Shown: positions 5,623 through 55,836 of the stretch, piece after piece
Layout of the letters: each line of letters opens with the position of its first letter
Numbering within the stretch: position 1 is the stretch's first letter
NCBI GenBank assembly: GCA_003987775.1
Contig: RXJD01000016.1
Location: forward strand, 41,947-105,946
DNA length: 64,000 nucleotides
From: Mycobacterium sp.
GTDB taxonomy: Bacteria; Actinomycetota; Actinomycetes; Mycobacteriales; Mycobacteriaceae
Direction of reading: 5' to 3'
Notes under the pieces: generated by a model
Told to the model about the DNA's origin: nothing
The model's input: the letters and a program-made list of their open reading frames with translations, nothing else
The model's database searches: none
Position numbers and translations under genes: made by a program

Positions 5623-5627
5623 AGAAC

Positions 5628-13630: not shown

Positions 13631-13659
13631 AGCCGCATTATTTCCCACCGGCGGTGCGG

Positions 13660-37621: not shown

Positions 37622-38278
37622 ATGGCAAACACGTTGCAGGATCCCGCGGTGGCTTCGACGCTGGAGCGGATGTACAGCGCCGCGCAGGACCAGATGGCGC
37701 AATTGCAGGCGAGGAGCGGCGATTTCGACCGCCCGATGACGGCGGCCGAGCGTACCGAGGCGATGAGCGAGTTCTACATCCCGGTGACGCCGGAAGCCGG
37801 TCAGCTGCTCTACGCGCTGGTGCGGGGTAGCCGTCCGGCGACGGTCGTCGAATTCGGGATGTCCTTCGGCATCTCCGCGATCCATCTGGCCGCGGCCGTG
37901 CGGGACAACGGCAGCGGCACCGTCATCACGACCGAGCTCAGCGACAGCAAGATTGCCGCAGCCAAGCGGACATTCGCCGAGACGGGGCTCGACGGGGTGA
38001 TCTCCATCCTGGAGGGCGACGCCCTGTCCACCCTGGCCGACCTGCACGGTCCGGTGGACTTCGTGCTGCTGGACGGGTGGAAAGACCTGTACCTGCCGGT
38101 GATCAAACTGCTGCAACCGTCGCTGTCCCCGGGTGCACTGGTGGTCGCCGACAACACCGAGTCGGCCGACCTCAGGCCGTATCTGGATTACGTGCGCGAT
38201 CCGGGCAACGGTTACGTGAGCTTCAACTTCCCGGTGCGGGCCACTGACAGCATGGAATTGAGCTGCTGGACCGGTTAG
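37622..38278 (+). CDS. Class I SAM-dependent O-methyltransferase
   Basis: A 218-aa methyltransferase. The SAM motif I is VVEFGMSFGISAIHLAA, the acidic loop TTELSD, and VDFVLLDGWKDLYLPVIKLL is the catechol-O-methyltransferase/CaiE-like segment. ATG 37622 follows TACCCT by 7 bases, suggesting a leaderless transcript. It overlaps the convergent acyltransferase by 4 bases. Substrate unknown. Confidence 0.88.
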   Translation: MANTLQDPAVASTLERMYSAAQDQMAQLQARSGDFDRPMTAAERTEAMSEFYIPVTPEAGQLLYALVRGSRPATVVEFGMSFGISAIHLAAAVRDNGSGTVITTELSDSKIAAAKRTFAETGLDGVISILEGDALSTLADLHGPVDFVLLDGWKDLYLPVIKLLQPSLSPGALVVADNTESADLRPYLDYVRDPGNGYVSFNFPVRATDSMELSCWTG

Positions 38279-40505: not shown

Positions 40506-41312
40506 CTAGCTGCCGGTGAAGGCGGCGGGGCGCCGCTGGTGGAATGCCGACGCTCCTTCGATGAAGTCGTCGGACTGCACCAGGATCGCCTGTCCTTGCA
40601 GCTCGCGTTCGAACGCAACCTCAATCCCGTCCAGACTGGCCGCGTTGATCGCCGCCTTGGTGGCCGCGAACGCGGCCGACGGACCGGTCAGCAGCGCCCG
40701 GATGACCTTGGCCACCTCCCAGTCGAGTCGCTCTGGTGGATGAATGGCGCTGATCAGACCCCACGTCAGTGCCTCAGCCGCGGACAGTCGCTCGTTGAGC
40801 AACGCGATGCGCATCGCCCTGCCGCGGCCTATCGTCGCCGCCAGTGACGCCGAAGCGCCGGCGTCGGGCATCAGGCCCATTCTGGTGACTCCCAGCGTGA
40901 AATAGGCCGTCTCGGCCGCCAGCACCAGGTCGCACGCCAGGATCAGGGAGATGGCGTTTCCAGCGGCCGGGCCTTGCACGACGGCGACGACGGGCTGTGG
41001 CATCGCGGTGATGGCGCGCACCACCCGATTCCCTTCTTCGCCGAAGTTGATCGCCGAGCCGACGCCGTGCCAGTCGTCGACGTTCATGCTGGCTCCGGCG
41101 CTGAAGGCGCGGCCCGCACCACCCAGTCGCACGACCTTGATTTCGGGGTCGGTCGCCGTGGCCTCCAGCAGGTCGGCGAGACCCGACAGCACCGGCACGG
41201 TGAGCGCGTTGAGACTTTCCGGCCGGTCGAACGTCACCGAGAGCACTCCGTCGACCCGACTGACCGATAGCCCTTGCAGCGTGGTCGTCAGTTCCGCTTC
41301 GTAGTTGCGCAT
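40506..41312 (-). CDS. Crotonase-fold protein lacking both catalytic glutamates
   Basis: A 268-aa enoyl-CoA hydratase/isomerase family protein. ATG 41312 has GAAAGGAAG upstream. The CoA fold is clear: RAFSAGASM, VVQGPAAGNAISLILACDLV, and ISAIHPPERL. Aligned without gaps to mitochondrial crotonase, the two catalytic Glu residues (rat Glu144 and Glu164) fall on Val142 and Arg168. It is therefore unlikely to be a simple hydratase; other crotonases use different residues for hydrolysis, decarboxylation or C-C cleavage. Last gene of the catabolic series; a 93-bp gap may carry its own promoter. Confidence 0.88.
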   Translation of the reverse strand: MRNYEAELTTTLQGLSVSRVDGVLSVTFDRPESLNALTVPVLSGLADLLEATATDPEIKVVRLGGAGRAFSAGASMNVDDWHGVGSAINFGEEGNRVVRAITAMPQPVVAVVQGPAAGNAISLILACDLVLAAETAYFTLGVTRMGLMPDAGASASLAATIGRGRAMRIALLNERLSAAEALTWGLISAIHPPERLDWEVAKVIRALLTGPSAAFAATKAAINAASLDGIEVAFERELQGQAILVQSDDFIEGASAFHQRRPAAFTGS

Positions 41313-41361
41313 GCCCGTCTTCCTTTCGTCTGCCCCAGCCCAAAGGCCGCTAAGCGAAAGA

Positions 41362-41390
41362 TACATCAGTGCATACGATCCATCAATGTA
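41362..41390. promoter_or_regulatory. Possible operator upstream of the crotonase gene
   Basis: TACAT (41362-41366) and ATGTA (41386-41390) are inverted around a 19-base centre, in an AT-richer patch within the 93-bp gap between the CoA-transferase stop and the crotonase start. On the minus strand TGATG also occurs twice. A separate promoter here is possible but unproven. Confidence 0.25.
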
Positions 41391-41405
41391 GCCGATGTCA
41401 CGGTC

Positions 41406-42605
41406 CTATGCCGATCCGGCGGCTCCGCTGTCGACACCGGCATCGATGCAGTTCAGGCCCAGTTCTCCGAGCACCTCGGAGGTGTGTGCCCCCAAACCCG
41501 GCGCGGGACCCGAGATGCCGCCGGGTGTGCGGGAGAACCAGGTCGGCACGCCCGGGAACCGTACCGGGCCGTGTGGGCTGTCCACCGTCTCGAAGAACCC
41601 GACCGCATCGAGCTGCGGGTCATCGAACAGTTCGGCCGGAGACGACAGCGCTGACGCCGGTATCTCCAGCTCGCGGAGCAGGTCCAGCCATTCCGCGGTG
41701 GTGCGCTGGGCGAACGTCTCGGCGAGCAATGCGTAGATCGCGTCGATCCGGCCGGCGCGGCCCTCCAGCGTGGCGTAATCCTCGCTGACCCAGGCGGGCT
41801 GCACGGCATCGGTGAACGCGGCCCAGTGCTTGTCGTTGTAGATCAGGGCCGACAGGTAGCCGTCACTGGTGCGGTACGGCCGGCGGTTGGGCGCCACCGT
41901 GCGGGGGTAGACGGCGGGACCCAGTGGCGGATCGAACATGGCGCCGTTGGCATGCTCGACCAGCATGAACGAGGCCATCGCCTCGAACATGCCGATCTCC
42001 ACCTCCTGACCCTCACCGGTGCGTTCCCGATGGAAGAGCGCCATCATCGTCGCGTAGAGCGCCGTCAGGCCGGCGACCTTGTCGGCCACGATCGTCCCCA
42101 CATAACTGGCTTCACCGGTCAGCTGCTGCTGCACGGACGGCAACCCGCAGGCGGCCTGGATGGTGTCGTCGTAGGCCGGCAGGTCCCGTTTCGGCCCGCG
42201 CCGGCTGTAGCCGTAGCAGTTGGTGTAGACGATCGCGCTGTTGAGGGCGGCGACCTCGGCGTAGCTCAGTCCGAGCCGCCCGATCGCCGCGGCCCGCATC
42301 GAGTGGATGAACACGTCGGCGCGTTCGATCAGCGCATGCAGGGCGGTCCGGCCGGCGTCGGACTTCAGATCCAGGGTGATGGCGCGTTTGCCGCGATTGA
42401 CATTGACGAAGACGCCGCTCATCCCGGGTGCCGGCCCTACCGAGACGTAGCGGGTGTCATCACCCTGCGGGGGTTCGATCTTGATGACGTCGGCACCCAT
42501 GTCGGCCATGATCTGGGTGCAGTAGGGGCCCATCACCATCGCGGTGAGGTCGACGACGCGCACGCCCGCCAGCGGCCCGGACTTCGACGACTTGGAGTCA
42601 GACAT
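41406..42605 (-). CDS. Class III CoA-transferase (CaiB/BaiF family)
   Basis: A 399-aa enzyme moving CoA between acyl groups. It has the N-terminal GVRVVDLTAMVMGPYCTQIM segment, then GADVIKIEPPQGDDTR, and the region of the catalytic aspartate in LPAYDDTIQAACG. ATG 42605 overlaps the upstream SDR stop by 8 bases. In the island it would form the CoA thioester of a ring-opened acid from another CoA donor. A longer open frame to 42770 is a shadow. Confidence 0.9.
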   Translation of the reverse strand: MSDSKSSKSGPLAGVRVVDLTAMVMGPYCTQIMADMGADVIKIEPPQGDDTRYVSVGPAPGMSGVFVNVNRGKRAITLDLKSDAGRTALHALIERADVFIHSMRAAAIGRLGLSYAEVAALNSAIVYTNCYGYSRRGPKRDLPAYDDTIQAACGLPSVQQQLTGEASYVGTIVADKVAGLTALYATMMALFHRERTGEGQEVEIGMFEAMASFMLVEHANGAMFDPPLGPAVYPRTVAPNRRPYRTSDGYLSALIYNDKHWAAFTDAVQPAWVSEDYATLEGRAGRIDAIYALLAETFAQRTTAEWLDLLRELEIPASALSSPAELFDDPQLDAVGFFETVDSPHGPVRFPGVPTWFSRTPGGISGPAPGLGAHTSEVLGELGLNCIDAGVDSGAAGSA

Positions 42606-43533
42606 GGTGGGCATTCTCCTTGATCGCCCACGCCGCTGACTCGAAGCTGTACCGGATGTGATCGGCGTGACCGTTCGGAACCGCCGGGAAGACCAGCGGC
42701 GCGCTGAGATCCCGCACGGCATAGAGCTGTTCGGCGACATCCTCGATGGTCCAGGCCAACCGTTGCACACCCGGAGTCTCGGCGGCCACCGCGCGGGCCA
42801 CCCGGCCGGCGATGGCGATCAGCACTTCACCGTTGATCGGGCAGGACTCGTGCGCGAGAAACCCCACCACGGGCGCCACCAACTCGGCCCCCATCGGCGG
42901 ATAGGCCGAAATATCGAGTCCTTCGGCCATTCTCGTCACCGCGGACGGCACGATGACGTTGCACAGCACGCCCTCCGCCGCGCCTTCGAGCGCCACGACA
43001 TTGGACAGACCGATGAGGCCGGCTTTGGCGGCGGCGTAACTGGCGACGCCGTGGTTTCCGTACATACCACCGATCGAGGAGGTCAGCACGATACGGCCAT
43101 AGCCGGCTTCACACATCAGCGGGAATGCGGGACGCACCACATGAAACGCGCCGCGCAGATGGACGTCGAGCACGGCGTCGAAGTCCTCGTAGCTCAGCTC
43201 CTTCAGCGAGCCGCGCCGGACGTTGCCTGCGTTGTGGATCAGGATGTCGACGCGCCCGAAGTGATCGAGCGCCGTTTGGATGATTGCCTGCCCGCCCGCC
43301 GGGGTGGTCACCGACTCGGCGCAGCTGACCGCTGTACCGCCGGCCGCGCTGATCTCTGCCGTAACCTCCTGCGCCGGTACGGCATTCGTGCCGTCACCGG
43401 TCAGCGTGCCGCCGGTGTCGTTCACCACGATCTTCGCGCCGCGGGCGGCCAGCATCAGGGCGTATTCACGTCCGAGGCCTCTGCCAGCACCGGTGATCAC
43501 GGCAACCCGGCCGTCGAATCTCAGTTCGGTCAT
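42598..43533 (-). CDS. Short-chain dehydrogenase (MFE-2-like)
   Basis: A 311-aa SDR. Motifs are TGAGRGLGREYA, an aspartate/asparagine pair VVNDTGG after the second strand, HNAG, and the catalytic SSIGG, SYAAAK. The sequence resembles the dehydrogenase part of peroxisomal multifunctional enzyme 2, which oxidises 3-hydroxyacyl-CoA or hydroxysteroids. ATG 43533 overlaps the monooxygenase stop (ATGA). An extended C-terminus (residues 240-311) is typical of this subgroup. Confidence 0.88.
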   Translation of the reverse strand: MTELRFDGRVAVITGAGRGLGREYALMLAARGAKIVVNDTGGTLTGDGTNAVPAQEVTAEISAAGGTAVSCAESVTTPAGGQAIIQTALDHFGRVDILIHNAGNVRRGSLKELSYEDFDAVLDVHLRGAFHVVRPAFPLMCEAGYGRIVLTSSIGGMYGNHGVASYAAAKAGLIGLSNVVALEGAAEGVLCNVIVPSAVTRMAEGLDISAYPPMGAELVAPVVGFLAHESCPINGEVLIAIAGRVARAVAAETPGVQRLAWTIEDVAEQLYAVRDLSAPLVFPAVPNGHADHIRYSFESAAWAIKENAHHV

Positions 43534-45368
43534 CGCAGTTCGAGACCGTCCAGGTCGCCCGCGGCGCGCCACTGCGCGAGCAGGTCGCCGAAGGCGTAGA
43601 AGCCGGGTCCGTACGGTTCTCCGAGATGTGAGCGGATTCCCTCGGTGCCGCCACCTTCGTTGTTGTAATAACCGGGCGTGCATTCCGAATCGAATTGGCT
43701 GTTGTCGATTGCGGTCTCCCGGATGGTTCGGCACCACGCGTCCTGCGCCTGCTGACTGGGTTCCACCGTCGTCGCGCCGCGCGCCAGGGCTTCCGCAATG
43801 ACGTAGGCGATGTGCTCGCCCTGCAGTTCGTAGTTGGCGGCGATGTTCGCCGAGATGCCGACCTGGGTGAAGCCGGTGAAGAACTGGTTCGGAAACCCGC
43901 GGCTGGTCATGCCGTGCAACGTCCGGTAACCATCGCGCCAGTGGTCGAACAGCGACAGCCCGTTTCGGCCTTCGATCGTCTCCATCGAGTAGCGGCGCCG
44001 GAGTTCGGTGGTGATCTCGAATCCACTCGCATAGATGATGCAGTCGACCTCGTATTCGATCCCGTTTGCCACCAACCCGTTTGCCGTCGCGCGCTCGACG
44101 CCCTTGGTGCCGGAGACATCGACCAGGGTGACATTCGGACGGTTGAAGGTAGGCAGATAGTCGTCGTTGGTGCACGGTCGTTTGCACAGGAAGCGGTAGT
44201 AGGGTTTGAGCGCCTCGGCGGTCTCCGGGTCGTCGACGATATCCTCGATCCGGCGGCGCAGCCGCTCCATCAGCTTGTAGTCTTCCTCCTCGCGGATGCC
44301 CATGAACTGCTCGGGGGTCATGGTCGCCGGATCCGGCAGGGCGAGCACCCGGGCGGCCGTGTTGCGGCCGAGCTCGGTCCAGAAGTCGCAGACGAGGTCG
44401 GGCTGCCCCAGCGCCATTCCCTCGAACGTCCAGGCATGGAAGTTGCGCTGACGTTCCTTCTGCCAACCCGGCCGCAGCGACCGCGCCCATTCCGGATCGG
44501 TCGGCGTATTGTTGCGCACCCCAACCGAAGAGGGGGTGCGCTGAAACACGTAGAGATGCTTGGCGTATCGGCCCAGGAACGGCACGATCTGCACGGCGGT
44601 GGCCCCGGTGCCCACGACGGCGACCCGCTTGTCGCTCAGACCGGTCAGCCCGCCGGTGGCGTCCCCGCCGGTATAGCCGTAGTCCCAGCGCGACGAGTGG
44701 AAACTGTGTCCCCTAAAGTCCTTGATCCCCGGGATGCCCGGCAGTTTCGGTCGGTGAAACGGCCCCGAGGCGACCACCACGAACCGTGCCCGGATATCGT
44801 CGTCACGATTGGTGCCGACCCGCCAGCGCTGAATGTCGTCATCCCAGTGCAGTGTCCGCACCTGAGTGGAGAACAGCGCGGAATCGTAAAGCCCGTAATG
44901 CTTCCCGATGCGCCGGCAATGCTCGTAGATCTCGGTGCCGTCAGCGAACTTCTTACTCGGTATGAAATTCAGCTCTTCCAGAAGAGGTATATAACAGTAT
45001 GATTCGTTGTCACATTGCAGGCCGGGGTAACGGTTCCAATACCACACACCACCGAAGTCGCCGCCCAGTTCGATGATTCGGACGTCGTCGACACCGGCCT
45101 TCTTCAGGTGAGCGGCGCACAGCAGGCCGCCGAAACCCCCGCCGAGCACCGCCACGTCGATGTCGGCGGAGATCGGATCACGGACCAGATCGGGCGAGTA
45201 CGGGTCGATCTCGTAGAAGCCGGCGAAGTCGTCCACCAGTTCGATGTACTGCCGGGAACCTTCTGGGCGCAGCCGTTTTTCACGCTCCCGCCGGTACTTC
45301 TCACGCAGCGCAGGCAGGTCGATGTCGTCAGGTGTCGCGGTCGGCGGGCAGTCGGAAATGCCGGTCAT
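43530..45368 (-). CDS. Type I Baeyer-Villiger-like flavoprotein monooxygenase
   Basis: A 612-aa FAD/NADPH enzyme. The first Rossmann motif is GGGFGG (residues 76-81), the Baeyer-Villiger fingerprint FxGxxxHxxxW is met exactly (Phe218, Gly220, His224, Trp228), and the second Rossmann is VVGTGATAVQIVP. An N-terminal extension of about 70 residues matches the longer subgroup that includes phenylacetone- and steroid-type enzymes. It inserts oxygen next to a ketone, giving an ester or lactone. ATGA overlaps on both sides place it inside the operon. Confidence 0.93.
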   Translation of the reverse strand: MTGISDCPPTATPDDIDLPALREKYRREREKRLRPEGSRQYIELVDDFAGFYEIDPYSPDLVRDPISADIDVAVLGGGFGGLLCAAHLKKAGVDDVRIIELGGDFGGVWYWNRYPGLQCDNESYCYIPLLEELNFIPSKKFADGTEIYEHCRRIGKHYGLYDSALFSTQVRTLHWDDDIQRWRVGTNRDDDIRARFVVVASGPFHRPKLPGIPGIKDFRGHSFHSSRWDYGYTGGDATGGLTGLSDKRVAVVGTGATAVQIVPFLGRYAKHLYVFQRTPSSVGVRNNTPTDPEWARSLRPGWQKERQRNFHAWTFEGMALGQPDLVCDFWTELGRNTAARVLALPDPATMTPEQFMGIREEEDYKLMERLRRRIEDIVDDPETAEALKPYYRFLCKRPCTNDDYLPTFNRPNVTLVDVSGTKGVERATANGLVANGIEYEVDCIIYASGFEITTELRRRYSMETIEGRNGLSLFDHWRDGYRTLHGMTSRGFPNQFFTGFTQVGISANIAANYELQGEHIAYVIAEALARGATTVEPSQQAQDAWCRTIRETAIDNSQFDSECTPGYYNNEGGGTEGIRSHLGEPYGPGFYAFGDLLAQWRAAGDLDGLELR

Positions 45369-46543
45369 GCCAACGCATTCTCCGGTAATGCCGCGGCATG
45401 CAGTGGCGCCGCCATGTCGTGCACGGCCGGCAGCACCTCTTCGGCGAACAAGCGAGTGCTGTCCATCGCCTCGTCATAGGGCATGGTGCCGAATTGCGGG
45501 ACGATGGTCAGCTCGGCGAACGAGCATGCCTCCTGGGCAGCGACGATCCGGTGATAGATCTCGTCCGGCGTGCCGATCAGCAGGTTGGAGGCGTGATAGC
45601 CCGGCGTCTTCGGCGCACCTTTGGCGTCCGTGGTGACCGAGGATGCCAGCACCGCGGTGGCGGTGGCTTCCCGCGCCGCATAGGCCTCGTATCCCTTGAC
45701 ACCCTTGAAGTTCGACGCGTCGGCGAAGCCGTAATGGACCGTCACGTCCCGGTTGGCCGTCCAGATCCATTCCTCCGATTTCGCGGCGTTCCGGGCGTCT
45801 GAGACGCAGTACATGAACATGACGTTCTTGGGCTGGCACGGCGGCAGCCCCTCCTCCTTGCGGAAGATGTTCACCTGCTGCACTTCCCGGCCGGCGTCCT
45901 CGATGGGCTTGTTTCCCACGAACAACGGCACCATGCCGCGCCGGGAGAGGATTTCCAGTGACTCCGCGGTCGAGGACGAGCTGTAGATGCGGGAGAACAG
46001 GTCGGTGCTGCGCGGCTCGGGCCGAAGCGACATCTCCGGCACCCGGAAGATCTCTCCCTCGTAGGAGAACCGCTCACCGGAGAGCGCCAGTTGCAGGATG
46101 TCCAACGTCTCGTTGAACCGCTGACGGCTCTCCTCCCGCGGCACGCCGACGGCGTCGAACTCACCCTTGGACACTCCGCGCCCGATCCCGATGGTGTCGT
46201 AGCGGCCGTTGGAGATGATGTCGAGATAGGCGATCTGATGCGCCAGGCGGACCGGATGCCACCACGGCGCCACCACGACGAAGGTGCCCAGGCTGATCTG
46301 CTCGGTACGGCCGGCGAAGTAGCTCAACGCCTGAATGGGGTTGGGCGTCATGCCATACGGTGTCCCGCAGTGTTCCGGCATCCAGATGCCGTCGAATCCG
46401 AGCGGTTCGGCCAGATCGGCGATGGCCAGGGTGCTCTGCACGCACTCCCAATCCGGCGTGGTCGGTGGCCGGCTGAAGTCTTCGGCGAGCACGCGCTCCC
46501 AGTCCTGCGAGTTGTGCGCTCCGAAGCCGAGATTGACCTTCAT
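45365..46543 (-). CDS. LLM-class flavin-dependent monooxygenase (LimB-like)
   Basis: A 392-aa luciferase-like TIM-barrel protein. Features are LAEPLGFDGIWMPEHCGTPYG, GTFVVVAPWWHPVRLAHQIAYLD and GRYDTIGIGRGVSKGEFDAVG. FMN-dependent relatives include limonene monooxygenase and type II Baeyer-Villiger enzymes of terpene pathways; the exact reaction is not determined. It overlaps the Rieske gene and the type I Baeyer-Villiger gene by four bases each. Confidence 0.88.
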   Translation of the reverse strand: MKVNLGFGAHNSQDWERVLAEDFSRPPTTPDWECVQSTLAIADLAEPLGFDGIWMPEHCGTPYGMTPNPIQALSYFAGRTEQISLGTFVVVAPWWHPVRLAHQIAYLDIISNGRYDTIGIGRGVSKGEFDAVGVPREESRQRFNETLDILQLALSGERFSYEGEIFRVPEMSLRPEPRSTDLFSRIYSSSSTAESLEILSRRGMVPLFVGNKPIEDAGREVQQVNIFRKEEGLPPCQPKNVMFMYCVSDARNAAKSEEWIWTANRDVTVHYGFADASNFKGVKGYEAYAAREATATAVLASSVTTDAKGAPKTPGYHASNLLIGTPDEIYHRIVAAQEACSFAELTIVPQFGTMPYDEAMDSTRLFAEEVLPAVHDMAAPLHAAALPENALA

Positions 46544-47901
46544 CGTTGTATCTCCGTCTCTGTTGCCAATGGTTGCGGGGCGCCGGTCCCCATGTACTGC
46601 GCGAGGTTGCGGTGCAGGTTTGCGGTGCTGCGTTCCATGTAGGGGTTGGGCTTCGGCCCGCGGAAACCGAGCGACTTCATCCCTTGCTGCACCGCGGCCA
46701 TGTTGGAGAAGTCCTGCGGCAGCACACTGCGCCAGTTCGGGTCATCCGGCGGTGCGTACACCCATTCGGTCTGCGGCTCTTCGCCTTCGGGGTACAGCTC
46801 GTAGCAGGAGGCTTCGAAGATGCACTGGTCGGGGTCATAGCCGTGCGGCCGCGCGCTGTAGCACAACGCGGTGGTCAGGCCCTGGCCGATTTGGAAATTC
46901 GGGAAGATCTGCCAGGCTGTGCCGCTGCTGGCCAGGTGCTCGGGATCGATGGCCGGCCAGATCACGCCGCGCGCAGCGTCGTCGTTGCGGGCCGAGGTGA
47001 GCCAATGATCGAGCACCCGGTCGGCCGGCGCGTCCTGCGGCAACTCGTCGACGAGTCGCAGTGCCGCGTCCACCAAGGTCCTGGTGGTGGTCGCATTGGT
47101 CTCCTCGAGCGTGTAGAGCTGCATTTCGGCGGTGGACACGCGGGGGTCCGCCCCGGTGCCGAGCCGGATCTTGGATTTGGTCTCGGCCAGATCCTTCGGT
47201 GCGTCATAACCGATGTTGCTGTGCCTGCCGTGCGCGGCCGCCCAGCCGCGGAAGTTGCCGAACTTGTTGAACTGGGGATGTGTGGTCGCGACGTGGTAGG
47301 TCTCGTTGAAGGCCTCCATCGCGACCTTCCAATTGCACTGGAAATGCAGCCACTTTCGCCACTTGCAGCGCATGTCCTGCAGATTGAACGGATCCAGCAT
47401 GGTCGCGGCCGGCTCGAGGTAGTCGCGCAACGGCTCGGCTGCGGGGTCCATGTTGATCCAGATCCAGCCGCCCCAGGTGTCGACGTGGACCATGCCCAGG
47501 TGGGTGTTCTCCGGGGTCAGCGCGCCCTGCCAGTCGGCCCGTTCGGGGACGTGGATGCAGCTGCCGTCCTGGCCGTAGGTCCAGCCGTGGAAGCCGCAGA
47601 CGAATGACTTCTTCTGCCCGCACGCGCTTTTGGCGCCGGCGGGGGTGTCCACCAGGCGGCGGCCGCGGTGTACGCACACATTGTGGTGCGCCTTGAAAGT
47701 GTCAGGGCCGGTCCGCACCACCAGGATCGAGTCGTCGAGGATGTCGTAGGTCAGGTAGCTGCCCACCTTGGGCAGATCCTCCACCCGGCCCACCTGCTGC
47801 CATACCCTGCGCCACAACCTGTCCCGTTCCGCGCGCGCATAGTCCTCGGAAAGGTAGGCCTCGACGCCGATCGTGACCGGGGCCGTCAATTCGTCGTCCA
47901 T
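46540..47901 (-). CDS. Rieske non-heme iron oxygenase, large subunit
   Basis: A 453-aa oxygenase. The Rieske [2Fe-2S] ligands are CVHRGR (Cys76, His78) and CGFHGW (Cys102, His105). The mononuclear iron motif lies in AMEAFNETYHVATTHPQF. ATG 47901 is preceded by AGGAGGTGAG. It hydroxylates its substrate with electrons from a reductase and ferredoxin; no such partners are in this window, so they must be borrowed. It is second in the leftward island operon. Confidence 0.92.
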   Translation of the reverse strand: MDDELTAPVTIGVEAYLSEDYARAERDRLWRRVWQQVGRVEDLPKVGSYLTYDILDDSILVVRTGPDTFKAHHNVCVHRGRRLVDTPAGAKSACGQKKSFVCGFHGWTYGQDGSCIHVPERADWQGALTPENTHLGMVHVDTWGGWIWINMDPAAEPLRDYLEPAATMLDPFNLQDMRCKWRKWLHFQCNWKVAMEAFNETYHVATTHPQFNKFGNFRGWAAAHGRHSNIGYDAPKDLAETKSKIRLGTGADPRVSTAEMQLYTLEETNATTTRTLVDAALRLVDELPQDAPADRVLDHWLTSARNDDAARGVIWPAIDPEHLASSGTAWQIFPNFQIGQGLTTALCYSARPHGYDPDQCIFEASCYELYPEGEEPQTEWVYAPPDDPNWRSVLPQDFSNMAAVQQGMKSLGFRGPKPNPYMERSTANLHRNLAQYMGTGAPQPLATETEIQR

Positions 47902-47912
47902 CTCACCTCCTG

Positions 47913-48776
47913 CTAGTCCCACCGCTTGATCGCGTCACGGAAGGAGTCGTCCTTGAGGAACAGCGAGGTGTTGTCCGCTCCCAGATGTCCCCATTTGAGA
48001 TTCAGGCCGCCGTCGACCAGCAGCGTCTGCCCGGTGACATAGGTGGACAGATCCGACAGCAGAAACAGGACGGCACCGGCCACCTCGCCGGGGCGGCCAC
48101 GCCGACCCATGGCGATGGCACGGCGGTCCCGGTGCGGATCGTCGTCGGTGTAGGTCTGCGATGCCGGCGTCGCAGTGACGCCGGGCGCGACGGCGTTGAC
48201 CCGGATGGCCTGTCCGCCATCGTCATACGCCAACTCGGCGGCCATGGTCCGGGTCGCGGCGACTATCGCGGCCTTGGCGGTGCCGTAGGCGATGTGGAAG
48301 GGCGCGGTGTTCATCCCGCTGATCGAGGAAATCGACACGATGGAGCCGGGGAGCCTGCGGCGCTTGAGTTCTGCCGCCACGGCCTGACTCGTGAAGAACA
48401 TCGTCTCCAGGTTCTGTGTGAACAACTCGCGCCAGTCGCTGCGCGTCACCCGGGTGGACGGCATCCACGTCGAGGGATCCGCGCCACCGGCGACGTTGAC
48501 CAGACCATAGAGCTGTCCGTCGGCACGGGTGGCGGCCTCCATGGCCGCAGCCACCCCGGCATCGGTGGACACGTCGGCGGCAACCGGAACCACCGCCAAT
48601 CCTTCGTCCACCAGCGGCGTGATGTGTCGATCGAGATTGTCGCGGCCACGGCTGACCGCGACCACGGTCGCGCCGGCTTCCGCGACGATGCGCGTCACCG
48701 TGGTGCCGATACCGCCGCCCGCGGCCCCGGCCACCACGATGACCCGGCCGGCAAGGCCCAGCAGCGCCGAGCTCAT
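47913..48776 (-). CDS. Short-chain dehydrogenase, first gene of the leftward island operon
   Basis: A 287-aa SDR. It has a slightly unusual glycine motif AGAAGGGIGTTV, then VNVAGG, a catalytic SISSISG with AYGTAK, and a C-terminal VDGGLNLKWGHLGADNTS extension. It would oxidise a hydroxylated intermediate to a ketone. The start codon lies 5 bp from a TGTCCGGACA palindrome and 14 bp from TATCAT (48796-48791), giving a very short leader. Confidence 0.9.
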   Translation of the reverse strand: MSSALLGLAGRVIVVAGAAGGGIGTTVTRIVAEAGATVVAVSRGRDNLDRHITPLVDEGLAVVPVAADVSTDAGVAAAMEAATRADGQLYGLVNVAGGADPSTWMPSTRVTRSDWRELFTQNLETMFFTSQAVAAELKRRRLPGSIVSISSISGMNTAPFHIAYGTAKAAIVAATRTMAAELAYDDGGQAIRVNAVAPGVTATPASQTYTDDDPHRDRRAIAMGRRGRPGEVAGAVLFLLSDLSTYVTGQTLLVDGGLNLKWGHLGADNTSLFLKDDSFRDAIKRWD

Positions 48777-48781
48777 TCAAT

Positions 48782-48791
48782 TGTCCGGACA
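48782..48791. promoter_or_regulatory. GntR-type operator at the leftward catabolic promoter
   Basis: TGTCCGGACA is a perfect palindrome within TTGTCCGGACATG. On the minus strand it sits directly after TATCAT (48796-48791), a -10 box, and 5 bp before the SDR start. It fits the GT-N-AC core of GntR operators and matches the site at the other end of the divergent region. Confidence 0.6.
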
Positions 48792-48876
48792 TGATAATGA
48801 CGTGCATCCATTAGAGAGCATGATTCTCTCGTGACAGTCTGCGCGTCAAGGCCGATCGTGTTCACGCTGGTCGCTA

Positions 48877-48893
48877 TTGTCTGGACCAGGCAA
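48877..48893. promoter_or_regulatory. GntR-type operator at the rightward catabolic promoter
   Basis: TTGTCTGG-A-CCAGGCAA is an inverted repeat with one mismatch. It shares TTGTCnGGAC with the first operator. It overlaps TATTGT (48875-48880), a -10 box, and the ATG at 48893 of the SMP-30 gene. Between the two operators a GAGAG-N7-CTCTC repeat (48814-48830) is also present. Confidence 0.6.
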
Positions 48894-50500
48894 TGATTGC
48901 TATCGTCCGACCGGTGAACGCTGCTCGTTACAGCGCCGCACGGCCTGCGACTCTTGCCGCAGGCTGGACCCTGACGCGGCTCACCGAGCCCAGCCGGCTG
49001 TTCGGGGCGAACGGTTTGCGCACCGGCCCCGATGGCCGGATCTACATCGCGCAGGTCACCGGCAGCCAGATCAGCGCGCTCGACCTGCGCACCGGTCACC
49101 TCGACACCGTGAGCGCCAAGGGTGGCGACATCATCGCCCCCGATGACGTGGCGTTCGACCCCGACGGCAACCTCTATGCGACCGAGGTGATGGACGGACG
49201 GGTGAGCGTCCGCGACACCGCGGGCCGCACCCGGGTGCTGCGCGACGATCTGCCGTCTGCCAACGGCATCACCGTCCATCACGGCCGGGTGTTCGTCGGC
49301 GAATGCCGCGCGGGGGGGCGCCTGGTGGAACTCGACCGGAGCGGCGGCGCCCCCACGTTGCTGCTGGAGAACGTGCCGTCACCGAACGCCATGGAGGTGG
49401 GCCCGGACGGGTACTTGTACTTCCCGGTGATGGGAGCCAATGAGATCTGGCGTATCGACCCCGATGGTGGTGAGCCACAACGGGTGGCGGGTGATCTCGG
49501 CGTGCCCGACGCGGTCAAATTCGACTCCGAGGGCTTCCTCGTGTCGACGCAGGTGCACAGCGGCCAGGTACTGCGCATCGACCCGCGTACCGGGCGACAG
49601 CAGATGTTGGCGCAGCTCAATCCAGGACTGGACAACCTGACCTTCGCCGACGACCGGTTGTTCGTCTCGAATTTCACCGGGGAGATCACCGAGATCTTCC
49701 GGGACGGCCAGACCCGGACGGTGCTGGACGGCGGGCTGAACTGGCCATTGGACCTGGCGTTCGGTGCCGACGGCAACCTCTACATCGCCGACGGGACATA
49801 CTGCTACGCGCTGCTCGCAGACGGCACGCTGCGCACCGCCGGAATGCTGTTCAGTCCGGGCTACCCGGGATTTCTGCGCGGACTGGCGGCCGCCGGATGC
49901 GGCGAGTTCATCGTCACCACCTCGAACGGAGAGATCGCCCGCTACCGGCCGGCGGGCAGCGAAAGCCAGGTGCTGGCACAGGGTTTCGACCAGCTTTATG
50001 GTGTCGCCGTCACCGCTGACGGCGGGATCGTGGCGGCCGAGCTGGGCGCGGGCCGGGTGGTGGGGATCCGCTCGGGTGAGGTGGAGGTGCTGGCCGCGGG
50101 TCTGCACGAACCCGTCGGCGTGGCCGTCACTCCCGAGGGGGCCTGCCTGGTGTCCGAGGCCGGGGCAGGGCGAGTAGTCAGGCTGGGTGACACCCGGCCG
50201 GTGATCGAGGGACTGCAACGGCCACAGGGGCTGGTCGTTCTCGATCGGCAGGTATTCGTGGTCGACGCCGCCGCAAAGGAACTCGTCGCCGTCGACCTGG
50301 ACGACGGGACCCGGGTCACCGTCGCGGCGGACCTGCCGGTCGGCGCGCCTCCGGGTGTCGTGCCCAAGCCGCTGCGCGGGATGCCACCATTCTCCGGACC
50401 GCAGGGACCGTTCGCCGGCATCGCCGCCGGACCTGACGGCACGCTGTACGTTTCCGCTGACGCCGAGGGCAGCGTGCTGGCGCTGCGCCGGGAAAGATGA
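48893..50500 (+). CDS. SMP-30/gluconolactonase-like beta-propeller protein, double length
   Basis: A 535-aa cytosolic protein built of many propeller blades. Blade signatures repeat along its length: GPDGRIYIAQ, DPDGNLYATE, GPDGYLYFPV, GADGNLYIAD, TADGGIVAAE, TPEGACLVSE and GPDGTLYVSA. Typical SMP-30 lactonases have about 300 aa, so this looks like two propellers or one enlarged one. The family hydrolyses lactones with a divalent metal; in this island it could open the Baeyer-Villiger lactone. ATG 48893 appears leaderless and overlaps the operator. Confidence 0.85.
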   Translation: MIAIVRPVNAARYSAARPATLAAGWTLTRLTEPSRLFGANGLRTGPDGRIYIAQVTGSQISALDLRTGHLDTVSAKGGDIIAPDDVAFDPDGNLYATEVMDGRVSVRDTAGRTRVLRDDLPSANGITVHHGRVFVGECRAGGRLVELDRSGGAPTLLLENVPSPNAMEVGPDGYLYFPVMGANEIWRIDPDGGEPQRVAGDLGVPDAVKFDSEGFLVSTQVHSGQVLRIDPRTGRQQMLAQLNPGLDNLTFADDRLFVSNFTGEITEIFRDGQTRTVLDGGLNWPLDLAFGADGNLYIADGTYCYALLADGTLRTAGMLFSPGYPGFLRGLAAAGCGEFIVTTSNGEIARYRPAGSESQVLAQGFDQLYGVAVTADGGIVAAELGAGRVVGIRSGEVEVLAAGLHEPVGVAVTPEGACLVSEAGAGRVVRLGDTRPVIEGLQRPQGLVVLDRQVFVVDAAAKELVAVDLDDGTRVTVAADLPVGAPPGVVPKPLRGMPPFSGPQGPFAGIAAGPDGTLYVSADAEGSVLALRRER

Positions 50501-50509
50501 AGGGCCACA

Positions 50510-51244
50510 ATGTCTGACGCGAAGCTGGCCGACCACCGCTACCTCCAGGTGGCACGCACGTTGCGCAAGGAGATCGTGGACGGGGTTTATCCCGTCGGCT
50601 CCCAACTCCCGACCGAGCACGAACTGTGCGAGCGGTTCGCGGTCAGTCGCTACACGGTCAGGGAGGCGCTGCGCAGGCTGCGTGACGACAACCTGGTGTC
50701 ATCCCGGCCGCGTACCGGAACGCTCGTCGTGCCACGGCCATCCGCGGATTCCTATGTGCAGCATGTCATGTCGATCAACGACCTGCTCGATTTCGCGTCC
50801 GGTACCCGGTTCGCCATCGAGTCCGTCGCGATGGTCAGCATCGATGACGACCTGGCCGCGCGCACCGGCCTGGCCGTCGGCGAGCAATGGCTGTCGGTTC
50901 GCGGGGCGCGCCAGGCCGTCGAGTCGACGCTGTGCCGCACGGAGTACTACATCAACCGGGAGTTCGCGGCGGTCGGCCGCCTGCTGCAGCGCCACGAAGG
51001 GCCGATCTTTCCCTTGATCGAGGACCTGTTCGGGCTCAGCATCGTTGAGGTGCACCAGGAGATCAGCGCAGTGCTGCTGTCCGCCGACCTCGCGACCGAC
51101 CTGGACGCCGAGCCGGGCACTCCCGCGTTACAGGTTCAGCGCACCTACCGCGCTTCGGATGATCGGGTGGCCCAGGTGACCATCAACACGCACCCGGCGT
51201 CGCGATTCCGTCATTCGATGACAATGCGGCGTGTCCGTGGTTAG
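50510..51244 (+). CDS. GntR/HutC-family regulator of the catabolic island
   Basis: A 244-aa regulator. The winged helix-turn-helix is at residues 10-75 (GSQLPTEHELCERFAVSRYT, then VREALRRLRDDNLVSSRPRTGT), followed by a UTRA ligand-binding domain ending VQRTYRASDDRVAQVTINTHP. It is 9 bp downstream of the SMP-30 gene and overlaps the acyl-CoA synthetase by 14 bases. It is the only regulator in the island and the likely owner of the TTGTCnGGAC sites, binding an acidic or CoA intermediate as inducer. Confidence 0.92.
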   Translation: MSDAKLADHRYLQVARTLRKEIVDGVYPVGSQLPTEHELCERFAVSRYTVREALRRLRDDNLVSSRPRTGTLVVPRPSADSYVQHVMSINDLLDFASGTRFAIESVAMVSIDDDLAARTGLAVGEQWLSVRGARQAVESTLCRTEYYINREFAAVGRLLQRHEGPIFPLIEDLFGLSIVEVHQEISAVLLSADLATDLDAEPGTPALQVQRTYRASDDRVAQVTINTHPASRFRHSMTMRRVRG

Positions 51245-52820
51245 GAAACTGATCGACGGGCGGTGGCTCCGTTGGGACGACGAGCGGGCCGCGGCGGCGT
51301 ACGCGCAGGGACTCTGGATCGACGGCACAGTGGCGGACGCCCTGCGGGAGGCCGCCGCGCGCACACCCGAGCGGGTAGCACTGGACGACGGCGAGCACCG
51401 TCTGACGTGTGCGGACCTCCACCGGCGGGCCACGGCGCTCGCACACGTCCTGCGGTCGCGGGTTCCGCCGGGCAGCGTGGTGTCGTTCATGCTGCCCAAC
51501 TGGCACGAGGCCGCGGTGATCTACCTGGCCAGCACGCTCGCGGGCATGGTGGCCAACCCGATCCTGCCGTCTTTGCGGGACCGTGAACTCCGCTTCATCC
51601 TCGAAGACGCGGGCAGCCGGATGGTGTTCATTCCGTCGGCATTCGGGCGCCATGACTTCGCGGCGATGCTGCACAGGGTGACAGCGGAGCTGACGTCGCC
51701 GCCGGATGTCGTTGTGGTGCGTGGAGATTGCGAAGCGGGTCAGATCCCGTTCGACTCACTGGTTTCGCCCCCCATGCCGCTGCCCGCGCCCGATCCCGAC
51801 GCCGTACGCATGATCCTGTACACCTCGGGAACCACCGGTCGACCGAAAGGGGTTCTGCACAGCCACAATTCGATCCATGCGCTGCTCCGCCAGATCGGCG
51901 GGCACTGGCTGGTGGAGCCGGGGGACGTGTTCCTGGTGGCCTCACCGATCGCGCATATCGGCGGCTCGATCTACGCCTTCGAGGCACCGCTGCTGCTGGG
52001 TGTCACCGCTGTGCTGATCGAACGCTGGGACGCCGACGAGGCGGTGCGGCTCATGGTCGCGGAACGTTGCACCCATATGGCCGGCGCGACACCATTCCTC
52101 GATCAACTGCTCTCGGCGGCCGAAAAGGTGCCTACCCGGTTGCCCGACCTCAAGGTCTTCATCTGCGGTGGGGCGTCCGTGTCGCCGACCTTGATCAGCA
52201 AGGCCGCAGCATATTTCGACTCTGCCGTCGTCACCCGGGTGTACGGGTCGACGGAGGTTCCGGTGACCACGGTCGGTTCACCGGGCAATCGCGACCACGC
52301 GGCCTGCACCGACGGGCGGCCCGGCATTGCCGACGTGAAATTGGTGGACGGGGAGATCCGCGTGCGGGGGCCGCAGATGCTGGTGGGCTACCTGCATCCG
52401 GAGGACGAAGACGAATCCTTCGACGCCGACGGCTACTTTCGCACCGGTGATCTGGCGCGCTGGGTGGACGACGAATACCTCGTGGTCACCGGCCGCGCGA
52501 AGGACATCATCATCCGAAACGGCGAGAATATTTCGCCGAAGGAAGTCGAGGACGTCCTGGCCGGCCATCCCGGCATCGCCGAGGTCGCCATCGTCGGGCT
52601 ACCCGACGAACGCACCGGCGAGCGCGCGTGCGCCGTCGTCGTTCCGCGGGCTGCGCCGGGACCGGATGTGGCGAGCCTGTCGGACTTTCTGGGGGCGTCC
52701 GGCGTCGCGCGCTTCAAAGCTCCCGAGCAGGTGGTCATCTGGGACGACTTGCCGAAGAACGACGCGGGCAAGGTGCTCAAGCATCAGATCAAGGCGGCGC
52801 TGACGGAGGCGGAGCACTGA
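51231..52820 (+). CDS. Acyl-CoA synthetase (AMP-forming)
   Basis: A 529-aa adenylate-forming ligase. The P-loop is LYTSGTTGRPKG, A5 is VYGSTEVP, A7 FRTGDLA, A8 GRAKDIIIRNGENISPKEVE, and the C-terminal lysine NDAGKVLKHQ. It activates a free acid with ATP and CoA. The N-terminal RWLRWDDERAAAAYAQGLW resembles cyclohexanecarboxylate- or benzoate-type ligases. GTG 51231 overlaps the regulator gene. In the island it probably activates a ring-opened acid. Confidence 0.93.
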   Translation: MSVVRKLIDGRWLRWDDERAAAAYAQGLWIDGTVADALREAAARTPERVALDDGEHRLTCADLHRRATALAHVLRSRVPPGSVVSFMLPNWHEAAVIYLASTLAGMVANPILPSLRDRELRFILEDAGSRMVFIPSAFGRHDFAAMLHRVTAELTSPPDVVVVRGDCEAGQIPFDSLVSPPMPLPAPDPDAVRMILYTSGTTGRPKGVLHSHNSIHALLRQIGGHWLVEPGDVFLVASPIAHIGGSIYAFEAPLLLGVTAVLIERWDADEAVRLMVAERCTHMAGATPFLDQLLSAAEKVPTRLPDLKVFICGGASVSPTLISKAAAYFDSAVVTRVYGSTEVPVTTVGSPGNRDHAACTDGRPGIADVKLVDGEIRVRGPQMLVGYLHPEDEDESFDADGYFRTGDLARWVDDEYLVVTGRAKDIIIRNGENISPKEVEDVLAGHPGIAEVAIVGLPDERTGERACAVVVPRAAPGPDVASLSDFLGASGVARFKAPEQVVIWDDLPKNDAGKVLKHQIKAALTEAEH

Positions 52821-52821
52821 C

Positions 52822-53592
52822 ATGCAGGTAGCGATCGTGACGGGCGCCACCGGAGGGATCGGATTCGGTTGCGCGGCAAAGCTTGCCGAGTCGGGAATGG
52901 CCGTGTTGGGGACGGGACGGGACGAGGCGAAACTGGCCCAATTGGCAGCGGCGATCGGCGACCCCGAACGGGTGGCGACCGTGGCGGTCGACCTCGTCGA
53001 CGACGACGCACCTCGCCGGATCGTCGATGCCGCCATCTCCCAGTGGGGCCGCGTCGATTTCCTGGTCAACGCCGCCGGGATCGGCAGCCCCCAGCCTCTG
53101 CACGAGACCGATGACGAATCCCTGGACCATTTCCTGGCTTTGATGCTGCGCGCGCCGTTCCGGTTGGTGCGTGAGGTGCTGCCGCAGCTGCGGCCCGGCT
53201 CGGGGATCGTCAACATCACGTCGACGTTCGCGGTGGTGGGCGGCATGCGCGGCGGGGCCTACTCGGCGGCCAAGGGCGGGCTCACCGCGATGACCACGCA
53301 CATCGCCTGCCAGTACGGGGCGCAGGGAATACGCTGCAACGCAGTGGCTCCCGGCGTCATTCAGACGGCCATGACCGAACACCGGCTGGCTGACGAGCGG
53401 TTCCGGCGGATCAACGTCGAGATGACACCGCACCAGCGGCTGGGCACCGTCGACGACGTCGCCGGCACGGTGGCGTTTCTCTGCTCGCCCGGTGGTGCCT
53501 TCATCAACGGCCAGACCATCGTCGTCGACGGCGGGTGGAGCGCCACCAGGTACCTTTCCGAGCGGGCGTTGAACTCCGAGTGGAAGACCTGA
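52822..53592 (+). CDS. Short-chain dehydrogenase/reductase
   Basis: A 256-aa classical SDR. Motifs are TGATGGIGFG, NAAG, NITSTFAVVGG with the catalytic AYSAAKGG, and VDGGWSATR near the C-terminus. It begins one base after the acyl-CoA synthetase stop, so it is the last gene of the rightward island operon. It is the third SDR of the island and may act on a hydroxyacyl-CoA or alcohol intermediate. Ends 6 bp before a convergent SRPBCC gene. Confidence 0.92.
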   Translation: MQVAIVTGATGGIGFGCAAKLAESGMAVLGTGRDEAKLAQLAAAIGDPERVATVAVDLVDDDAPRRIVDAAISQWGRVDFLVNAAGIGSPQPLHETDDESLDHFLALMLRAPFRLVREVLPQLRPGSGIVNITSTFAVVGGMRGGAYSAAKGGLTAMTTHIACQYGAQGIRCNAVAPGVIQTAMTEHRLADERFRRINVEMTPHQRLGTVDDVAGTVAFLCSPGGAFINGQTIVVDGGWSATRYLSERALNSEWKT

Positions 53593-53598: not shown

Positions 53599-54060
53599 TC
53601 AACGCATTTCGAAGTGATGCCGGATGCCGTAGAGCATCTTGGCGTGTGCCTTGACGGCCTCGCGGACGGTGAACGCGGCCAGCGGCCGGGGCGCGGCGAA
53701 CCGGATCCGTTCGGTGACCCGGGTGCCGCCGTCGATCGGCTCGAAACCCACCGTCGCGCGCAGCCGCACGCCGGGCGACTGGTCGGCCTCGGTCTGCACG
53801 TCGCCGCTGACCGGGACGTAGAGCCGTGCCCGGTAGGTCACCTTCATCGCGACCGGCCCCAGCGGAATCCGGTCCACCACTTCATAGCTCACCCGGTAGC
53901 CGTCCGGCGTCTCGGTACGGGACAACAGCTCGACCGACACGATCAGCGGGTGCACCAGCCTGATGTTGTCCAGGTCGACGTAGTAGTCGCGAACCTGATC
54001 AGGCGGTGCGGGCACCTGTTCGGTCAATGTTCGTTCCGCGCGAGCGATCCACCAGGTCAT
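53599..54060 (-). CDS. SRPBCC-family protein
   Basis: A 153-aa START-like protein from ATG 54060. Segments ERTLTEQVPAPPDQVRDYYVD, RVSYEVVDRIPLGPVAMKV and VGFEPIDGGTRVTERIRF are the helix-grip pattern, with a long C-terminal helix. It binds an unknown hydrophobic ligand or acts as a cyclase. It lies 13 bp downstream of the rhomboid gene in the same direction, so is probably co-transcribed with it. Confidence 0.8.
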   Translation of the reverse strand: MTWWIARAERTLTEQVPAPPDQVRDYYVDLDNIRLVHPLIVSVELLSRTETPDGYRVSYEVVDRIPLGPVAMKVTYRARLYVPVSGDVQTEADQSPGVRLRATVGFEPIDGGTRVTERIRFAAPRPLAAFTVREAVKAHAKMLYGIRHHFEMR

Positions 54061-54073
54061 GCCGACTCCCCCG

Positions 54074-54934
54074 TCAGGTGAACTGGGCAAGGAGCGACGC
54101 CGTGCGCCACCACACCAACACCCCGAACAGAACCAGCATCGCGACCGTCGCCGCCGCCTGGATGAGATCCCGTCGCTGCCGGGGCGCATAGACGTATGCC
54201 GCCGAAACCACCGCACCCGCGACCAATCCGCCCACGTGTCCCTGCCAGCTGATCTGCTGCGAGCTCACCAGGGGCACCACGAACGTGAAGACGAGGTTGA
54301 ACACGATCACCGCGACCACCCAGCGGACGTCGAGGGTGAGCCGCTTGGCCACCACGAACGTCGCGGCGAACAGGCCGAACACCGCCCCCGACGCGCCCGC
54401 CGTCGCCGTATTGAGCGGGGACAACAGATAGACCAGCACCGAACCGCCGAGGCCGCTCAACGCATACAATCCGCCGAATCGCAATCTGCCCAGCCACATT
54501 TCCAGTGGCGGCCCCACGACGTACAGCGCCCACATGTTCAGCAGCAGATGGGTGGGGCCGTAGTGCAGGAACGCCGACGTCACCAGGCGGTAGTACTGGC
54601 CGTCGGCGACCGCGGGCGGCCACAGCGCGAATTGCCGTTGCACGTCCGGGATCGCCATCTCGGCGACGAACGCCAGCACGTTGACGGCGATCAGCGCGAT
54701 GGTGATGACCGGCATACCGGAGCGTTCCCGACCGCCGAAGCGTGTCCGCTCCGGCCTGATGGTCCGGGCGCCGGCCTGCACGCACTCCACACACTGATGG
54801 CCGACGGCGGCGCTGCGCATGCAGTCACCACAGATCGGCCGCTCGCACCGGGTGCAGTGGACATACGTCTGGCGGCCGGGGTGCCGGTAGCAGGTCGGCG
54901 CTTCGGCCGGCGACCGCGTCTCGTGTGTTTCCAT
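54074..54934 (-). CDS. Rhomboid-family intramembrane serine protease with N-terminal zinc finger
   Basis: A 286-aa membrane protease. Residues 15-51 form a B-box-like zinc finger (Cys15, His18, Cys27, Cys30, Cys35, Cys38, Cys48, Cys51). Six or seven membrane helices follow. The catalytic serine is Ser182 in GASGAVFG and the histidine is His233 in WQGHVGGL; the HLLLNMWALYVVGPPLE segment is typical. It cuts membrane proteins within the bilayer. Position next to the Rv0111-like gene (before island insertion) matches Rv0110. Confidence 0.93.
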   Translation of the reverse strand: METHETRSPAEAPTCYRHPGRQTYVHCTRCERPICGDCMRSAAVGHQCVECVQAGARTIRPERTRFGGRERSGMPVITIALIAVNVLAFVAEMAIPDVQRQFALWPPAVADGQYYRLVTSAFLHYGPTHLLLNMWALYVVGPPLEMWLGRLRFGGLYALSGLGGSVLVYLLSPLNTATAGASGAVFGLFAATFVVAKRLTLDVRWVVAVIVFNLVFTFVVPLVSSQQISWQGHVGGLVAGAVVSAAYVYAPRQRRDLIQAAATVAMLVLFGVLVWWRTASLLAQFT

Positions 54935-55770: not shown

Positions 55771-55836
55771 GGGTTCTTTGCACCGGCACCGTAGGTTACG
55801 CTCTGCGCGACGTCCTCAGTGAACCAAGGATTCATA

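Follow-up and report, generated by a model that had tools for sequence, protein, structure and literature searches.

A conserved mycobacterial gene cluster that carries either a luciferase-like monooxygenase or a thiamine diphosphate enzyme with an aldehyde dehydrogenase

Camphor degradation in Pseudomonas putida uses a type II Baeyer-Villiger monooxygenase of the luciferase-like monooxygenase (LLM) type, together with a type I Baeyer-Villiger monooxygenase (BVMO) and a coenzyme A (CoA) step. The pentalenolactone pathway with PtlE and PtlD is biosynthetic and is not a CoA-linked catabolic route. The pdc progesterone cluster of Caenibius tardaugens likewise has a type I BVMO and an LLM, which are functionally redundant in progesterone oxidation according to the available part of the report (PMC12239570). 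Here we describe a cluster of 11 tightly packed genes in two divergent units, found in a 64,000-nucleotide stretch, the window, of a Mycobacterium sp. genome of 7.29 Mb (assembly GCA_003987775.1, contig RXJD01000016.1, positions 41,947 to 105,946). It encodes a type I BVMO, an LLM, a Rieske oxygenase, three short-chain dehydrogenases (SDR1 to SDR3), a CoA-transferase, a crotonase-family protein, a beta-propeller protein, a GntR-type regulator and an acyl-CoA synthetase. The initial annotation knew of no pathway on record with exactly this set of genes, and no description of the cluster was found in the open-access literature searched, a scope that left out most subscription papers and all bioRxiv preprints. 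The accessible part of a paper on M. abscessus (PMC11925935) showed no link to it.

The strongest new point, and the most informative fact missed by the initial annotation, is a mutual exclusion, in the genomes searched, between the LLM and an unrelated pair made up of a thiamine diphosphate (ThDP) enzyme and an aldehyde dehydrogenase (ALDH). We give a probability of about 0.6 to the reading that the locus is a conserved mycobacterial catabolic regulon in which the LLM replaces the ThDP enzyme and ALDH at one oxidation that cleaves a C-C bond.

Two exclusive states of one cluster

A total of 396 genomes of the genus were searched for the BVMO (E ≤ 1e-220), the LLM (E ≤ 1e-120) and the ThDP enzyme (E ≤ 1e-150), which were found in 303, 100 and 205 genomes, respectively. 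Among the 303 genomes with the BVMO, 100 carried the LLM, 202 carried the ThDP enzyme, none carried both and one, a genome that is 58% complete, carried neither. Three genomes had the ThDP enzyme and no BVMO; one of these (L139) keeps only the ThDP enzyme, the ALDH and the flanking acyltransferase of the genes sought. A hypergeometric test of the exclusivity (P = 7e-81) ignores descent and was not counted as evidence.

Gene order was compared in the best 80 of the 582 stretches that a BVMO scan of named genomes matched, five annotated plasmid stretches and 100 stretches from other genomes of the genus. These 100 were hand-picked, with large contigs favoured and both LLM and ThDP genomes included, and therefore the frequencies of the two states were taken from the 396-genome search and not from the loci. 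The set gave 148 mycobacterial loci with a BVMO of at least 60% identity and a Rieske protein of at least 70%, gathered through the BVMO, LLM or ThDP enzyme, with identical Rieske proteins in six locus pairs. Each piece was 20-22 kb long, so some outer genes such as SDR3 were cut off. In an all-against-all comparison of the neighbouring families, the ThDP enzyme and the ALDH turned up in mycobacterial loci only in the absence of the LLM.

The LLM was present in 66 of the 148 loci, the ThDP enzyme in 76, both in none and neither in six. Three of the six are on short contigs (L039, L042 and L048). The other three are Mycolicibacter-type loci (L049-L051), which still have the ALDH in the cluster and have the ThDP gene elsewhere in the genome (82-83% identity, 3/3); these genomes have thus retained the ThDP gene despite its separation from the cluster. 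No LLM match was found in these three genomes at E ≤ 1e-60, in a search that had no positive-control genome. The LLM gene lies directly between the Rieske and BVMO genes in all 66 LLM loci. Of 87 uncut ThDP loci across all genera, 86 have the ALDH gene next to the ThDP gene, and the ALDH of this pair occurs in none of the 66 LLM loci. In 74 of 89 loci, the ThDP gene is preceded by the CoA-transferase gene or by a member of an acyl-CoA dehydrogenase block; L025 (M. kyorinense, 4598-7734), unlike other loci, has the pair between the propeller gene and SDR1. The CoA-transferase and SDR2 are present in every locus of both states (66/66 and 76/76), and the acyl-CoA dehydrogenase block occurs in 28/66 LLM loci and 39/76 ThDP loci. 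Outside the genus, 12 of 14 loci with the Rieske enzyme and BVMO have the ThDP gene, once as a contig-end fragment; none of the 14 has an LLM orthologue, and one has an LLM of 26% identity.

The number of changes between the states was estimated from trees. A FastTree of five core genes from 139 loci, one of them a cut locus that carries no state, placed the LLM loci in two clades of 22 and 43, with the L025 lineage sister to the smaller one. In a 44-row subset analysed with IQ-TREE (LG+G4), two changes were needed, both forced by starred branches, and a single LLM clade was rejected by the approximately unbiased test (p = 0.00023). A three-gene tree with outgroups gave four changes, with the 22-locus clade shifted to the base. 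The BVMO tree gave six, cut locus included, because there are two BVMO types, with about 66-73% and 77-94% identity to that of the window, whose distribution cuts across the LLM and ThDP states. Nor do these types follow the core-gene tree; it looks as though clusters had swapped this single gene. Both types occur with both states, so the idea that the exclusivity is a by-product of BVMO type was rejected. There have been two to four changes of state, at least two, and, judging from the relatives outside the genus, ThDP may be the older of the two.

Layout, operators and age of the cluster

The features of the cluster are as follows, in window coordinates.

40506-41366, minus strand: crotonase-family protein (Pfam ECH_1)
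41406-42614, minus: class III (CaiB/BaiF) CoA-transferase (Pfam CoA_transf_3, 373.7 bits)
42598-43533, minus: SDR2 (adh_short, 138 bits; best NCBIfam model PRK07791, below cut-off)
43530-45368, minus: type I BVMO, like PtlE and polycyclic-ketone monooxygenase (motifs, NCBIfam and PDB match)
45365-46543, minus: LLM, a luciferase-like flavin monooxygenase, in the slot that varies between loci (Pfam Bac_luciferase)
46540-47922, minus: Rieske non-haem iron oxygenase, alpha subunit only (Pfam Rieske and Ring_hydroxyl_A, over cut-off)
47913-48776, minus: SDR1, first gene of the leftward operon (Pfam PF13561, 180 bits; YxxxK at 164)
48777-48913, no strand: divergent promoter region with two operator copies (homologous regions)
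48781-48792, no strand: operator site 1, SDR1 side, TTGTCCGGACAT in the window (family palindrome TTGTCCGGACAA)
48876-48888, no strand: operator site 2, propeller-gene side, ATTGTCTGGACCA in the window (spacing to site 1)
48914-50500, plus: SMP-30/NHL-type protein, predicted to form two beta-propellers (Pfam SGL; AlphaFold2 model)
50510-51244, plus: GntR/HutC-type (UTRA) regulator (Pfam GntR and UTRA)
51231-52820, plus: acyl-CoA synthetase, like cyclohexanecarboxylate-CoA ligase (AMP-binding, 244 bits)
52822-53592, plus: SDR3 (Pfam; YxxxK at 147)

All 11 open reading frames, their order, strands and families, as first annotated in two divergent units, were confirmed with Pfam and NCBIfam. The tight overlaps also claimed are real on the minus strand, where SDR1, Rieske, LLM, BVMO, SDR2 and CoA-transferase overlap in turn by 10, 4, 4, 4 and 17 bases. 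The only minus-strand junction with a gap (39 bases) is that from the CoA-transferase to the crotonase. On the plus strand, the gaps between the propeller gene, gntR, synthetase and SDR3 are 9, -14 and 1. The most likely starts are 42614 for the CoA-transferase and 43533 for SDR2, since longer frames reach upstream into the next gene. A conserved N-terminus suggests that the propeller gene probably starts at GTG 48914 and not at ATG 48893. An acyltransferase-3/SGNH gene (38275-40272) flanks the cluster on one side, and a polyketide-cyclase-like gene and a rhomboid gene (53599-54934) flank it on the other. Farther along the window, 55819-57522 encodes a multicopper oxidase with a twin-arginine-like start.

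The initial annotation proposed a neighbourhood search for the eleven-gene order. The core genes do recur in the 148 loci: SDR1 in 147, SDR2 in 146, CoA-transferase and propeller protein in 143 each, GntR in 141, acyl-CoA synthetase in 135 and SDR3 in 109. With SDR1, SDR2, CoA-transferase and propeller each in 143-147 loci, the arrangement is far beyond chance. The crotonase (at least 60% identity) is in only 5/148 and was therefore rejected as a core gene and as the pathway member it had been taken for. It joins the operon only in M. gordonae/asiaticum-type loci, with shorter pieces in L011 and L017.

Promoter regions were compared between SDR1 and the propeller gene. The 143 regions, 137 of them distinct, came from the window and 142 of the 143 loci with both genes; L025 was excluded for an intergenic gap of more than 700 bp. 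A TGTCYRGACA site with at most one mismatch was present in 143/143 regions and was perfect in 119, compared to 0.07% (perfect) and 1.8% (one mismatch) of Markov-shuffled regions. A partner site (at most two mismatches) was 95-97 bp away in 137 regions and 85-108 bp away in the other six. The pattern was not enriched across the whole window (4 found, 6.3 expected), so the unusual thing is the conserved pair. A relaxed pattern gave three matches in the whole genome and one for the control, and no large regulon beyond the cluster is claimed. The GntR protein presumably recognises the pair. A divergent catabolic cluster, as first described, is supported, and its two units are probably co-regulated as one regulon.

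The cluster had also been described as an island inserted between its flanks. A recent horizontal acquisition in the source genome would account for the 13 kb between the flank genes here, and we consider it extremely improbable. The BVMO is in 303/396 genomes of the genus. The GC content at third codon positions is 0.81-0.87 in the cluster and 0.81-0.88 in the flanks; therefore, there is no sign of recent import. Nine genomes with the acyltransferase and no BVMO match, which were chosen and not sampled, were inspected at the same site, and eight had cluster remnants. L194, L195 and L197 keep the CoA-transferase, acyl-CoA synthetase and SDR3, and L194 also has gntR and sdr2 fragments. L198 keeps the synthetase and SDR3, L199 pieces of the alcohol dehydrogenase and half an ALDH, L200 gntR and synthetase fragments, L201 fragments of SDR3 and a second synthetase, and L202 the ALDH alone. 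L196 had no cluster pieces and no rhomboid match within 19 kb. These remnants suggest that the sites were emptied by loss and not filled by insertion in one genome; on the simplest reading, an ancestor carried the cluster at this site. Recent insertion was rejected on the remnants, the spread and the base composition. The cluster is real and old and is probably co-regulated.

The closest named BVMO relatives among the best 80 of 582 stretches are in two M. gordonae records (94% identity). On an M. branderi plasmid (L089, 14537-19925), a core version has the Rieske enzyme, BVMO, SDR2, CoA-transferase, ThDP enzyme, ALDH, a TauD-type dioxygenase and P450s, and the same record bears a MobF relaxase gene. 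On a Sphingobium plasmid (L092), a region at 13034-15883 with genes annotated as Cas9 and Cas2 (type II CRISPR) is close to the plasmid's version of the cluster.

Enzyme families, proposed pathway and alternatives

The BVMO has the signatures FxGxxxHxxxWD (FRGHSFHSSRWD) at 218, GxGxxG (GGGFGG) at 76 and GTGATA at 253. It scored 694.6 bits with the NCBIfam PtlE model (neopentalenolactone/pentalenolactone D synthase), below the equivalog cut-off of 1100. Its best PDB match was 5mq6 (E 1.7e-129), which we take to act on polycyclic ketones. The genome of L002 has a second PtlE-like BVMO (G000:C53, 43463-45217), with 803 bits for this model versus 694 for the cluster BVMO. Rieske alpha subunits carry CxH...CxxH cluster ligands and a (D/E)xxHx4H iron site, and both motifs were found, at 83 and, as ExxHx4H, at 207. 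No beta subunit, ferredoxin or reductase is among the eleven genes, which therefore do not make up a complete multicomponent dioxygenase.

The Bac_luciferase score of the LLM (174.8 bits, Pfam cut-off 27.9) places it in the luciferase-like superfamily, and its best sequence and fold matches were flavin mononucleotide (FMN) luciferases and RslO1 (7bip). FMN luciferases convert aldehydes to acids. The best NCBIfam model was the F420-dependent TIGR03619, at 114.8 bits. RslO1 was not used as a mechanistic guide, since the available part of PMC12903851 concerns RslO9, which is not a luciferase-fold enzyme. A relative of the LLM (38-41% identity) in one genome of the genus has one internal stop and lies near P450-, SDR-, acyl-CoA ligase- and type I BVMO-like frames, the P450 being named by sequence reading. 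The ThDP enzyme falls among acetolactate synthase, oxalyl-CoA decarboxylase and 2-hydroxyacyl-CoA lyase. It reached none of the curated cut-offs of the models listed, and acetolactate-synthase models gave the best scores; its HHE motif was invariant in 18 rows.

The propeller protein exceeds the Pfam cut-off for the SGL domain of SMP-30/gluconolactonase (56.8 vs 26.3 bits). SMP-30/gluconolactonase is a single six-bladed propeller with a lactonase site. The AlphaFold2 model (pLDDT 91) has about 47 strands, enough for two propellers, its best fold matches were the LRP6 and megalin propeller arrays (TM about 0.37), and it scored 147.9 bits over 5 stretches with the ScyD/ScyE family NF033206 (cut-off 80). 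Given the double-propeller fold, lactonase was dropped as a certain identity; the protein is possibly a lactonase, with a putative catalytic role. The acyl-CoA synthetase scored 360.9 bits with its best NCBIfam model, TIGR03208 (cyclohexanecarboxylate-CoA ligase, cut-off 792.3), and had no PDB match at E ≤ 1e-60. SDR2 is a probable hydroxyacyl-CoA dehydrogenase. Many loci also have alpha/beta acyl-CoA dehydrogenase pairs that resemble pimeloyl-CoA dehydrogenase, IpdE2 and 4x28, the last presumably a cholesterol-pathway enzyme. An NDMA-dependent alcohol dehydrogenase, over its model cut-off, is also found in many loci. These extra genes point to CoA-linked breakdown of a bulky acid.

From these families we infer the following pathway. 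The cluster-encoded GntR/HutC regulator would bind both operator copies and free both units once an intermediate appears. The Rieske enzyme and SDRs would convert a bulky alicyclic substrate, most likely a terpenoid or steroid-like compound, to ketones; this substrate class, as first suggested, is plausible, and the identity within it stays putative. The BVMO would insert oxygen beside the ketone, and a hydrolase, perhaps the propeller protein, would open the product. The CoA ligase and CoA-transferase would form thioesters, and SDR2 would drive beta-oxidation, joined by the acyl-CoA dehydrogenase pairs that about half of the loci carry. In one step, a C-C bond beside a carbonyl would be cut to give a free acid. 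In most mycobacterial clusters and most relatives outside the genus, a ThDP lyase or decarboxylase would yield an aldehyde, which the ALDH would then oxidise. In the window lineage and a second lineage, one FMN-type LLM would use O2 to reach that acid from the same starting compound. Cleavage by a ThDP lyase with ALDH and direct flavin oxygenation of a 2-oxo or 1,2-dicarbonyl compound would both end in one and the same acid, and therefore one LLM could replace both enzymes. The specific proposal that the LLM and the ThDP-ALDH pair displaced each other at least twice in an otherwise unchanged regulon, with the LLM performing a one-step, O2-dependent cleavage of a 2-oxo acid or 1,2-dicarbonyl, is put forward as tentative.

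Several observations weigh against this replacement. The eleven genes include no electron-transfer partner for the Rieske enzyme and no flavin reductase, and the structure model of the LLM is of moderate confidence (pLDDT 67). The ThDP enzyme sits between three families, so lyase or decarboxylase is a provisional label for it. The NDMA-dependent alcohol dehydrogenase is in 32/76 ThDP loci and 0/66 LLM loci; therefore, the states differ in more than the LLM and the ThDP-ALDH pair. L058 and L093, two of the 14 loci outside the genus, have neither the LLM nor the ThDP gene in the stretch covered. Also, with only two changes of state on the five-gene tree and four on the three-gene tree, much of the exclusivity could come down to lineage history.

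One alternative is a cluster with two haplotypes of different substrate ranges, in which the LLM and the ThDP-ALDH pair act at different points and the exclusivity comes from descent and block-wise recombination. This would fit two to four independent switches and the restriction of the alcohol dehydrogenase to the ThDP state. It is rather doubtful, given that the core genes are the same in both states, that 0/303 genomes have both, and that the LLM and ThDP pair occupy different positions, with the ThDP gene of L049-L051 outside the cluster, so a single recombination would be no simple trade. Alternatively, the LLM could replace only the ALDH, by luciferase-type aldehyde oxidation or as an F420-dependent dehydrogenase, with the ThDP step supplied by another enzyme of the cell. 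Luciferases are indeed among the nearest solved relatives of the LLM, and TIGR03619 is its best NCBIfam match. That score is below the cut-off of 166.9, however, and the ThDP gene (E ≤ 1e-150) is in 0/100 LLM genomes, which makes this explanation distinctly unlikely.

Other explanations concern the substrate. A progestogen-like steroid side-chain or ring pathway would agree with 5mq6 as the best PDB relative of the BVMO, with the affinities of the acyl-CoA dehydrogenase partners (pimeloyl-CoA dehydrogenase, IpdE2, 4x28) and with the oxidation of progesterone by both the BVMO and LLM of C. tardaugens. We regard it as unlikely, since known steroid ring-cleavage genes are absent from the eleven genes and the four-gene pdc cluster, as far as the accessible part of PMC12239570 describes it, has no Rieske or ThDP gene. 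An apocarotenoid-type pathway, such as that for abscisic acid, would involve CoA activation and side-chain shortening to a methyl ketone before the BVMO step. A BVMO step from dehydrovomifoliol to rhodococcal acid is proposed for Rhodococcus sp. P1Y in the available part of PMC9599779 (PMC7996341, seen to the same extent, also bears on this route), and a related cluster is on a Rhodococcus plasmid. This is a long shot, as that side chain has no obvious need for the Rieske enzyme and the paired acyl-CoA dehydrogenases.

These results make a testable pathway of an anonymous cluster in about three quarters of the genus. If the replacement of the ThDP-ALDH pair by the LLM holds, the exclusivity would allow genome data by themselves to predict which class of reaction an uncharacterised LLM carries out. 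The operator pair could serve directly in a search for the inducer. The degraded remains of the cluster at this site point to an environmental trait that some lineages have lost.

Comparison with known systems

The likeness to pentalenolactone biosynthesis lies in single enzymes. The window BVMO matches the PtlE model far below the equivalog cut-off, and PtlD (a 2-oxoglutarate dioxygenase) is the second-best model, also far below its equivalog cut-off, of the TauD-like gene in the Rhodococcus cluster. Camphor degradation is similar in that it combines an LLM with a type I BVMO in the breakdown of an alicyclic compound. It differs in that 3,6-diketocamphane monooxygenase was 29th in the fold search with the LLM and was missing from its 10 sequence matches (E ≤ 1e-10). 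2-Hydroxyacyl-CoA lyase or oxalyl-CoA decarboxylase with an ALDH, in one-carbon shortening like that of alpha-oxidation, is of the same family as the cluster ThDP enzyme, which differs in its scores below the cut-offs and its preference for acetolactate-synthase models. The pdc cluster, likened here by description only, differs in having four genes and TetR and LuxR regulators, with no Rieske, ThDP or CoA genes described in the available part of PMC12239570. By analogy, the redundancy of its BVMO and LLM is a precedent for an LLM replacing another oxygenase, and not for the exchange of an LLM and a ThDP-ALDH pair proposed here.

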